The translations under genes and the position numbers were made by a program. The notes beneath the pieces are model-generated. The model had not been told where the DNA came from. It saw nothing but the letters and a program-made list of their open reading frames with translations, and searched no databases. From positions 1-29,124 of IMG/VR virus record IMGVR_UViG_3300027749_004422: a DNA stretch of 29,124 bases. One strand, written 5' to 3'. Below are positions 1 to 22,835 of the stretch, piece after piece; positions within the stretch are counted from its first letter, which is position 1, and the number at the start of each line of letters is the position of its first letter. The DNA is from a virus.

Positions 1-230
1 AAAAAGAAGCAATGAAAATACAAGGTAGCGGTTGGATATATTTGGCAAGTGATGGTACTATCAAAACAATTAAAAATCATCAAATAAAACTAGATATTGT
101 GCTTATTATCGATTGGTGGGAACATGCATGGGCGTTGGACTACCAAGCTGATAAGAAAGGCTATCTAGCCAATCAGTGGAAGATAATAAACTGGAATATT
201 ATCAGTTCTAGAGTTGGTCTACGGTCTTAA
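1..230 (+). CDS. Fe/Mn superoxide dismutase, C-terminal part (5' end outside window)
   Basis: The reading frame is open to the left edge, so this is the 3' end of a longer gene; the ATG at 12 is internal to the conserved domain and is not the start. Visible family landmarks are GSGW near the beginning, then DWWEHAW, LDYQ, a later Y, and INWN at the end. In Fe/Mn superoxide dismutases the Asp and His of D-x-W-E-H are two of the four metal ligands; the other two His lie upstream, outside the window. The enzyme converts superoxide to oxygen and hydrogen peroxide. Oddities: the family signature expects two aromatic residues after WEHA, and here there is W then A; the loop between GSGW and the WEH motif is short. 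The last 23 bases overlap the minus-strand zinc-ribbon gene. The neighbouring ErpA-like gene suggests a redox role. Metal preference cannot be decided from this part. Confidence 0.85.
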   Translation, partial: KEAMKIQGSGWIYLASDGTIKTIKNHQIKLDIVLIIDWWEHAWALDYQADKKGYLANQWKIINWNIISSRVGLRS

Positions 231-498
231 GACTGCTAGCCGGAATACTCCATACATTTCTACTCTCAACGCCTTTGGCCTGTGCAAACTTTTTGGCGTC
301 GCAATTGTCACACACGTGATACACACTATTTGTTAATCGATTTGGATCCATTGATCCTTTATCTCGATTAAACACTTCCCCACAACAATCGCACCTAAGT
401 ATCAACACTGTTTTATTACGGCTGTAGGTATGATGTTTACCACGTTTGCTGGTTCTCACGTGTTGAGTTTGACGAAATTCGGTGCCTATGAACATCAT
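208..498 (-). CDS. small zinc-ribbon protein of unknown function
   Basis: A 96-residue basic protein read on the minus strand. The middle holds CDCCGEVF and, about 25 residues later, HVCDNCDAKKFAQ; the two C-x2-C pairs are the layout of a four-cysteine zinc ribbon. The N-terminal third is rich in Arg, Lys and His, as in nucleic-acid-binding proteins. Start is at 498 or the adjacent ATG at 495; no good Shine-Dalgarno is seen. Its 3' end overlaps the superoxide dismutase gene tail-to-tail by 23 bases, and its start faces the ErpA-like gene across a 55-base gap. I judge it a real gene, not a shadow, because the cysteine pattern is regular and no other gene occupies most of its span. Similar short zinc proteins of unknown function occur in marine T4-like phages, from memory and unchecked. 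It could be a small transcription or recombination accessory factor; the sequence does not say which. Confidence 0.7.
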   Translation of the reverse strand: MMFIGTEFRQTQHVRTSKRGKHHTYSRNKTVLILRCDCCGEVFNRDKGSMDPNRLTNSVYHVCDNCDAKKFAQAKGVESRNVWSIPASSLKTVDQL

Positions 499-528: not shown

Positions 529-536
529 GATAAATA
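529..536 (+). promoter_or_regulatory. candidate T4-type late promoter (GATAAATA)
   Basis: GATAAATA followed by CTCT closely matches the T4 late-promoter octamer TATAAATA. The TAAATA core begins 23 bases before the ATG at 554, so a transcript would have a very short leader containing the GAGG ribosome site. The same core lies 24, 25 and 31 bases ahead of three other genes in this window. Confidence 0.45.
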
Positions 537-553
537 CTCTATCGAGGACAATC

Positions 554-880
554 ATGATCACCATTTCCAATTCAGCCAAGTTAAAAATACTAGATCTGTT
601 AGCAGAAGAAAACAATCCTAATTTATCTTTACGTACATTTGTCCAAGGAGGCGGTTGTAGTGGATTCAGTTACGGGTTTACATTTGATGAAGTAATGAAC
701 GAAGATGATTTTGAAATTCCGTTAACTGATAGTTTTAAAGTACTTGTAGATGCAATGAGTATGCAATACTTGTCAGGTGCAGAAATAGATTATAAAGAAG
801 AATTAATGGGTAGCACATTCAGCATAAAGAATCCTAACGCACAAACAACATGTGGTTGCGGTTCTAGCTTTGGAGTTTAA
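554..880 (+). CDS. erpA: A-type iron-sulfur carrier protein (ErpA/IscA/HesB family)
   Basis: A 108-residue protein with the complete A-type carrier pattern: [11 protein letters not shown] around Cys35 and TCGCGSSF at the C-terminus with Cys100 and Cys102. These three cysteines bind the Fe-S cluster that the family hands to apo-enzymes. The stretches NPNL-L-R and SMQYL-G--IDY resemble bacterial ErpA more than IscA. The ATG at 554 is preferred because GAGG lies five to six bases upstream; a TTG at 527 in the same frame would add nine residues lacking family similarity. The gene is followed after four bases by the giant structural gene, so they may share a late transcript. Fe-S carriers are known as auxiliary metabolic genes in marine phages. 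Here it sits beside a superoxide dismutase, which protects Fe-S clusters; the functional link is inferred. Confidence 0.92.
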
Positions 881-884
881 ATAA

Positions 885-12913
<12,029 letters not shown>

Positions 12914-12914
<1 letters not shown>

Positions 12915-21625: not shown

Positions 21626-22135
21626 ATGCGCCTAGATAAATTTGGTAATCCTATTTTTAATACACAAGACATATTCAAATTCCTATACCAAGGAAAACTA
21701 ACCAACCTCAAAGATCTAACTGTGGATTATACAGAAGATATCAAACAGTTGGAACAAACAGCCGGACTTACATTTTCAAAATTCAACGATCAGTTAGATT
21801 CTATTAGTATAGAGGACTTTGATCAAGCACTGCAAAGTGACTGGTTTATGCCACCTGAATACAAAGATTTTGATGTAGAAGAATGGTGTCTTAACCGTTG
21901 CACAACTAAACAACAAAAAGAACGAGTATACGACGAAATGGAAGCATATCGTGATCGTAAGATGATCCCTTTGCTACAATGGACCAAACATTTTGTAGAT
22001 ACATGTAATGAAAACGGAATTGTTTGGGGTGTAGGACGTGGATCCAGCGTGGCCAGTTTTGTGCTGTATTTGCTAGGTGTACATCAAATAGATTCAGTCA
22101 AATATAATTTAGACTGGCAGGAATTCCTGAGATAA
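21626..22135 (+). CDS. stand-alone fragment related to DNA polymerase III alpha (DnaE/PolC palm start)
   Basis: A 169-residue protein. Residues about 108-169 match the start of the family C polymerase palm: a helix ending NENGIVWGVGRGSSVASFVLYLLGV, then IDSVKYNL and a final EFLR. In bacterial DnaE this region reads [33 protein letters not shown] and continues into the catalytic Asp-x-Asp. Here the protein stops exactly after FLR, so the Gly-Ser triphosphate-binding motif (residues 135-141) is present but the catalytic aspartates are absent. Residues 75-108 also resemble the helical region just before the palm. A polymerase is therefore excluded; a regulator, dNTP sensor or structural remnant is possible. 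The ribosome site is poor (AGG two bases from ATG). No downstream frame in 22136-22161 continues the domain, so this is a defined short protein and not an obvious frameshift. Confidence 0.7.
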   Translation: MRLDKFGNPIFNTQDIFKFLYQGKLTNLKDLTVDYTEDIKQLEQTAGLTFSKFNDQLDSISIEDFDQALQSDWFMPPEYKDFDVEEWCLNRCTTKQQKERVYDEMEAYRDRKMIPLLQWTKHFVDTCNENGIVWGVGRGSSVASFVLYLLGVHQIDSVKYNLDWQEFLR

Positions 22136-22161: not shown

Positions 22162-22440
22162 ATGGCTAATCAAAAAACAGGTATTTACAGAACAGCTAAA
22201 GGTCGTGAAGTAGACATGGGCAAACTAATTAATCAAAATGAGTTGCAACCAGCTGTGGGAAATATGAAGGTAAATGCTAGAGGCGACAAGTTAGGCGCTG
22301 GTGGCAAGATTATATCTTCAGGAATTCCAAGTCAAATAAATGCAAGCAGGCCTACGCCAGTGGCTGCACCAGTTGCCGAACCAGCGGTTGCACCAGGTAA
22401 AAAAGATGTATCTACTATGGATCCAGAAGGTAACGAATGA
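22162..22440 (+). CDS. small conserved phage protein with Ala/Pro tail, function unknown
   Basis: A 92-residue protein with a perfect AAGGAG ribosome site seven bases before ATG. The first 60 residues (YRTAKGREVDMGKLINQNELQPAVGNMKVNARGDKLG) form a conserved-looking basic block; residues 62-85 are a flexible Ala/Pro/Val tail. No membrane segment or catalytic motif is seen. I recall similar short proteins with the NARGD-LG-GGKI pattern in marine T4-like phages, annotated as hypothetical. Its stop overlaps the co-chaperonin start by ATGA, so the two are co-translated. A small virion or assembly protein is plausible. Confidence 0.75.
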   Translation: MANQKTGIYRTAKGREVDMGKLINQNELQPAVGNMKVNARGDKLGAGGKIISSGIPSQINASRPTPVAAPVAEPAVAPGKKDVSTMDPEGNE

Positions 22441-22835
22441 AAGTAACAGGAAAACTTATTCCAGTTCGTAATAATATCCTTATTACGGATATGAATTTTG
22501 GTGAGCAAATATCAAAAGGTGGCATTTTTGTTCTCAGCGATGATGGAAAAAGCGAAGGTGTTAAGCACCGATGGGGCCGTGTTTGGGCGATTGGGCCAGA
22601 ACAAGAAGACGTCTCTGTTGGAGAATGGATCCTGCTTGAGCACGGTCGGTGGACTCGTGGAGTCACAGTAGTTGAACAAGACGGTACTGAAATTACAATT
22701 CGTCGTGCAGATGTAAATGGAATTTTAATGGTGTCTGATGAAAAACCAGACGGCCTCGAATTAGGTAAGCATAGCAAAGTAGAGCATGCAACATTTGATC
22801 CGGCAACATTTTCAAGACCCAGTTTTGAACAATAA
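22437..22835 (+). CDS. GroES-like co-chaperonin (gp31 type)
   Basis: A 132-residue protein with the GroES layout: LIPVRNNILITDMNFGEQ (first strand), the mobile loop with KGGIFVLSDD that would contact host GroEL, WGRVWAIGP, VGEWILLEHGRWTRG (roof/loop part), and a C-terminal strand ADVNGILMVSD. T4 gp31 replaces host GroES so that GroEL can fold the large capsid protein; the same role is inferred here. Length exceeds both GroES (about 97) and gp31 (111): about 25 extra residues after the fold (GLELGKHSKVEHATFDPATF) look unstructured. It lies at the end of the structural cluster and is followed directly by a strong terminator, so it probably belongs to the late transcript. Confidence 0.85.
   Translation: MKVTGKLIPVRNNILITDMNFGEQISKGGIFVLSDDGKSEGVKHRWGRVWAIGPEQEDVSVGEWILLEHGRWTRGVTVVEQDGTEITIRRADVNGILMVSDEKPDGLELGKHSKVEHATFDPATFSRPSFEQ

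Follow-up and report, generated by a model that had tools for sequence, protein, structure and literature searches.

A divergent Fe/Mn superoxide dismutase of giant T4-related phages with a predicted route into the capsid

The internal proteins IPI-III and the packaged ADP-ribosyltransferase Alt of phage T4 carry a short N-terminal leader that ends in L/I-x-E before a small residue. The prohead protease gp21 cleaves after L/I-X-E and cuts off the Alt propeptide, and the N-terminal 10 residues of IPIII are enough for incorporation into the head (PMC9026906). IPII and IPIII both start MKTYQEFIAE/A (here and below, a slash marks the boundary after the glutamate). A precedent for a packaged viral superoxide dismutase (SOD) is the late protein A245R of chlorovirus PBCV-1, a Cu/Zn enzyme that is packaged and linked to lower superoxide early in infection (PMC7019647). 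Among phages, PA5oct-like Pseudomonas phages (Callisto, MIJ3 and Paride) and Vibrio phage 2.275.O encode such proteins, whose annotations read SOD or hypothetical; SOD goes unmentioned in the papers on MIJ3 and Paride, and a limited search of the open-licence literature found no paper on packaging of phage SODs. Here we analyse an Fe/Mn SOD gene that enters the left end of IMG/VR virus record IMGVR_UViG_3300027749_004422 (the window; the entire linear record of 29,124 bases), together with its relatives. With a probability of about 0.7, giant T4-related phages make this enzyme late, pack it into the capsid, mature it with a protease and inject it with their DNA.

The isolate SODs belong to the same clade as the window type and show the same residue changes, at ~31-41% identity and with other gene neighbours; the Callisto leader, MNDSIKKYISIAE/A, ends in IAE/A. 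As with the T4 internal proteins, the large SOD genomes also encode a gp21-type protease, and where T4 has the UV-repair gene denV adjoining ipII/ipIII, the SOD phages have UvdE beside SOD. Unlike the T4 proteins, the cargo is a metalloenzyme, its leaders vary and its packaging is a prediction. A245R differs in its unrelated Cu/Zn fold, its eukaryotic algal virus and its packaging route.

A divergent clade of phage Fe/Mn superoxide dismutases

The plus-strand frame from base 3 is open at the left edge of the window and encodes 75 amino acids at 3-227 (KEAMKIQGSGWIYLASDG...IIDWWEHAWALDYQADKKGYLANQWKIINWNIISSRVGLRS, first and last residues), followed by TAA at 228-230. The fragment matches positions 26-102 of Pfam Sod_Fe_C (PF02777; E 7e-16, 58.5 bits, cut-off 20.9) and has no matching family in PHROGs. 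It corresponds to residues 112-186 of the 186-amino-acid relative L003; the nearest contigs, L002 and L003, hold the intact gene and are 95% identical to the window across the shared 75 residues. Only the Asp and the C-terminal His of the metal ligands, in DWWEH, lie inside the window, while the promoter, the leader and the N-terminal domain fall to its left and are read from relatives. Homology thus confirms the fragment as part of a phage-encoded Fe/Mn SOD. The first-pass annotation, which had recognised the tail end of such an enzyme with its WEH metal site and phage genes after it, was right on both counts, and the two N-terminal metal histidines, whose absence it had named as grounds for doubt, are present in full-length relatives.

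Full-length L008 is matched by both PF00081 and PF02777. An AlphaFold2 model with 50 relatives reached a mean pLDDT (predicted local distance difference test) of 90.6, with about 96 in the core and a disordered stretch at residues 1-14 (pLDDT <50). Foldseek and VIA-align placed it among SODs (Z up to 24.4, root mean square deviation (rmsd) 1.6 Å over 167 residues), the structural match beginning at residue 17-18, so that the model clearly has the SOD fold. Bacterial SodFM enzymes (for example Escherichia coli SodB and the SodFM2 of Porphyromonas gingivalis and of Bacteroides fragilis) are alike in fold (Z ~23-24, rmsd 1.6-1.9 Å) and have the metal ligands, Tyr34 and the WEH motif in common with the phage proteins. 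The latter are ~30-37% identical to them, lie in a clade separate from those sampled, and differ in a short alpha-hairpin and an extra N-terminal leader.

H26, D156 and H160 are invariant in full-length relatives, and the equivalent of H73 is an invariant His one alignment column off. The phage set conserves all four metal ligands (three His, one Asp), Tyr34, GSGW, Trp158 and Glu159, a pattern indicative of selection acting at the active site. His30 is replaced by Leu in 52/52 phage SODs and Tyr163 is never Tyr, being mostly Ala, whereas all 46 bacterial SODs sampled from a genome collection keep both. At the substrate gateway, the side chains of His30 and Tyr163 meet from opposite sides of the dimer interface. 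A human double mutant lacking the pair (H30N/Y166F; 1pm9), listed among the structure matches, was crystallised, so the loss is compatible with a folded enzyme. Relative to bacterial SODs, the stretch joining the first two helices is ~20 residues shorter. The N-terminal Gln is replaced, the C-terminal water-coordinating position is His, as in most SodFM3/4, and XD-2 is Leu/Ile; the second His of HXXXHH is lost, as in SodFM4, and the sequence is short and of dimer type. The metal scheme of Sendra et al. (PMC10172142) uses the C-terminal water-coordinating residue and XD-2; given the C-terminal His and Leu/Ile at XD-2, we predict Fe or cambialistic rather than strictly Mn use.

A scan of the viral collection confirmed at least 579 relatives, and overlapping scans, with alignments headed by the protein of the Pseudomonas phage or of the Vibrio phage, confirmed at least 535 and at least 501. 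The three scans rule out SOD as a rare cargo of environmental phages. The first-pass view of Fe/Mn SOD as an uncommon phage cargo is thus unsupported for environmental phages, though few isolate records carry one (PA5oct-like Pseudomonas phages and Vibrio phage 2.275.O). Databases already contain annotated phage SODs, such as the 56% identical BFVD match A0A6J5L7W0. The suggestion that short loops mark a reduced phage lineage holds for the loop-reduced SOD and fails for the phages, which are large, the longest SOD-carrying contigs reaching 385 kb. The phylogeny proposed in the first-pass annotation gave the phage SODs a clade of their own: in a tree with 53 phage and 38 bacterial sequences, the two groups separated with full support, the bacterial side covering SodFM1/2-type enzymes and some end branches being long. 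Sequence and phylogeny place the phage enzyme in a divergent viral clade of Fe/Mn SODs.

Leader peptides, prohead protease and late promoter

An N-terminal extension, absent from the bacterial SODs sampled, is present in nearly every full-length phage SOD. Its end is usually [LIV]-x-E with G, A, S or N as the next residue; otherwise it varies widely in sequence and length (MYNFIRYVSLNE/G in L003, the nearest readable leader to the window; MEFKFIQKFIIE/G; MREYIKLLE/A; MYDIVERIAE/A; MRAVEFLTE/S). The strict motif [LI]xE[GAS] occurred in 92/119 non-redundant phage SODs, against 4.2±2.0 in shuffled leaders (maximum 12 in 1000 shuffles), and at 70% redundancy in 23/39 against 1.8; the looser [LIVF]xE was found in 117/119. 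An earlier sequence set agreed with these counts. None of the 46 bacterial SODs had the motif, and it was mostly absent from the conserved gene neighbours (A-type carrier 7/52, UvdE 2/51, zinc ribbon 0/52, tail protein 0/72), counts that rule out a leader common to all SOD neighbours. A first regular-expression scan of the loci for leaders returned essentially SODs alone. The C-terminal tail of the Vibrio phage 2.275.O SOD (Table 1) contains MLDE/S; T4 Alt is processed at its C-terminus too (PMC9026906).

A gp21-type prohead protease gene was present in 7/7 SOD contigs of at least 280 kb and in the isolates Callisto and Vibrio phage 2.275.O. The adjoining protein, by position the major capsid protein, has YLLE/S in its N-terminal region (by eye). 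Genes inserted directly 3' of SOD often have like leaders on unrelated bodies. Among them are an ADP-ribosyltransferase (PF03496) with the leader MRLYEFLNE/N (Table 1), which we regard as a candidate packaged analogue of T4 Alt, uncharacterised proteins (MKIWELLNE/G, MRIWEIIKE/G) and a LysM protein (MRIKEIISE/E). In several phages (Table 1), SOD is fused to an SGNH-hydrolase-like domain, recognised by eye and without a Pfam match. The junctions carry VISE/S, LVSE/G or IVNE/D, as expected if the prohead protease separates the two domains; the fusion is possibly a two-enzyme packaged polyprotein. Since the leaders finish with an acidic site and look like those of the ADP-ribosyltransferase and other neighbours, a secretion signal is unlikely.

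Upstream of SOD, NTAAATA lies 4-7 nucleotides before the ATG in 154/173 regions (exactly 5 in 113), while Shine-Dalgarno-like sequences occur in 4/173. The T4 late promoter TATAAATA spans -13 to -6; its counterpart in phage Aeh1 is CTAAATA (PMC1524935). With the promoter at these positions, the NTAAATA spacing would put the SOD start codon at about +1 of a leaderless late mRNA. No excess of sigma70-type promoters over shuffles was found near SOD, and a weak but recurrent gp55-like match appeared in all nine large SOD genomes. The window holds 4 ATAAATA sites against 15.9 expected, of which 3 sit 20-30 nucleotides before a gene start. Across five contigs (G001-G004 and G007; loci L085-L121) and the window, TAAATA stands 4-7 nucleotides before ATG at 48 candidate starts, which suggests that many late mRNAs of these giant T4-related phages may be leaderless.

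Gene neighbourhood of the SOD locus

Over the 81 SOD loci in which neighbours were counted, the conserved block reads UvdE, a K/A-rich protein (minus strand), SOD, zinc ribbon (minus strand), A-type Fe-S carrier and tail protein; UvdE is a UV-damage endonuclease conserved two genes 5' of SOD. The zinc-ribbon-like protein of the window has no Pfam match, and TAAATA precedes its start. Further genes in the window encode a clamp loader, a dCMP deaminase, PhoH and an endolysin. Two additional observations in the window are a putative split or remnant polymerase piece and a co-chaperonin candidate (Table 1). In a marine phage-like contig of a Methylophilaceae metagenome-assembled genome (MAG; L122, CAJIZS010000002.1), SOD is followed by SufB-, SufC-, SufD- and SufS-like genes; this SOD, apparently frameshifted or truncated at its 5' end, is the sole PF02777 match in the 1.1-Mb MAG.

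Table 1. Features of the window and of related SOD loci
Feature	Sequence	Position	Strand	Evidence or remark
C-terminal 75 amino acids of Fe/Mn SOD	window	3..230	+	PF02777 58.5 bits; 95% identity to L002/L003
96-amino-acid C4 zinc-ribbon-like protein, convergent SOD neighbour	window	208..498	-	family in 77/81 SOD loci
T4-type late-promoter-like element GATAAATA before the A-type carrier gene	window	529..536	+	ATAAATA at 530-536
A-type Fe-S carrier (IscA/ErpA-like), without leader	window	557..880	+	PF01521 65 bits; phrog_17776; 75/81 loci
4,009-amino-acid tail-fibre-like protein after the SOD block	window	885..12914	+	same family in 72/81 loci
Short protein, putative split or remnant polymerase piece	window	21626-22135		match confined to a portion of the DNA polymerase III alpha NTPase domain; phrog_11127, 171 amino acids
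Cpn10/gp31-like co-chaperonin candidate	window	22437-22835		just below Pfam cut-off; PHROG head-morphogenesis match
UvdE UV-damage endonuclease (example)	L033	7797-8816		PF03851
ADP-ribosyltransferase directly 3' of SOD	L024	4782-5570		PF03496; also L039, L040
SOD-SGNH-hydrolase-like fusion	L008	9668-10672		also L011, L059, L061, L065
SOD of Vibrio phage 2.275.O	L083	5713-6279		MLDE/S in C-terminal tail

Predicted packaging and its alternatives

The fold, the ligands, the leader motif, the protease gene of the large genomes and the late-promoter element with its spacing can be read directly from sequence. We infer from them packaging, cleavage, injection, catalytic activity and a benefit of the SOD to the phage. 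The gene would be transcribed from a T4-type late promoter, with AUG at or beside the transcript start. The leader (~8-25 residues, ending in L/I/V-x-E) would act as a capsid-targeting sequence that brings SOD into the prohead core, where the gp21-type protease would cut after Glu and leave a mature SOD of ~174 residues in the head. Ejected with the DNA, the enzyme could remove superoxide in the new host ahead of phage gene expression and so shield Fe-S enzymes and the injected DNA; protection of DNA within the virion is a further possible role. A wider picture appears fairly probable to us, in which a large group of environmental giant T4-related phages pre-loads SOD in the capsid and injects it as an antioxidant and possibly as counter-defence, exchangeable leaders also load ADP-ribosyltransferases and other cargo, and late mRNAs are leaderless.

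Virion membership, in which the SOD would behave like the internal proteins of T4, is a prediction from sequence, and several observations weigh against it. The motif is short, and about one third of the groups at 70% redundancy have no small residue after Glu. One SOD (L161) has no leader, and that of Vibrio phage 2.275.O has none at its N-terminus. Smaller contigs are without a protease gene, probably because they are fragments; a SOD-protease distance of ~124 kb in a 356-kb contig fits this explanation. Over the whole proteomes of five contigs, leader enrichment is two-fold (41/693 N-termini versus 2.8% at internal Met), and the packaging argument accordingly rests on SOD and its neighbours. 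The loss of His30 and Tyr163 could also lower activity.

The main rival is an ordinary intracellular late SOD that guards the infected cell and its Fe-S proteins during virion production, unpackaged and with its extension put to another use. The late promoter, the A-type Fe-S carrier adjoining SOD in 75/81 loci and the Suf-like genes after SOD in the marine Methylophilaceae contig suit this account, which we nonetheless judge unlikely: it leaves unexplained why a protease-type site is conserved at the end of otherwise dissimilar leaders, is found in none of the 46 bacterial SODs and recurs in like leaders on unrelated neighbours. A packaged head protein derived from SOD and kept for structure or metal binding, with no enzymatic function, would account for the loss of His30 and Tyr163 in all phage copies, the loop deletions and the lost N-terminal Gln. 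Against it, the metal ligands, Tyr34, GSGW, Trp158 and Glu159 are kept and the human double mutant still folds, which makes this reading improbable. That the open reading frame continues past the left contig end might suggest an assembly chimera or bacterial contamination, as the first-pass annotation had allowed for. L002 and L003 are colinear with the first 1,500 nucleotides of the window at 88% nucleotide identity, and because these independent contigs align across the region we take the left edge to be a contig end. This alignment and the gene order shared by most of the 81 independent loci rule out a chimeric edge, and the phage SODs form their own clade; an artefact of either kind is barely credible.

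If packaging and injection of SOD are borne out, a very common group of environmental phages would bring an antioxidant enzyme into the cell together with its DNA, and one could test whether phages are limited by superoxide at the time they infect, a proposal already made for chloroviruses. Uncultured giant T4-related phages could then be screened for injected cargo by sequence, using the leader rule: a short N-terminal peptide that ends in [LIV]-x-E with a small residue next, and a prohead protease gene in the same genome. The phage SODs are also natural examples of Fe/Mn enzymes that lack His30 and Tyr163, two positions that have otherwise been explored by mutagenesis.
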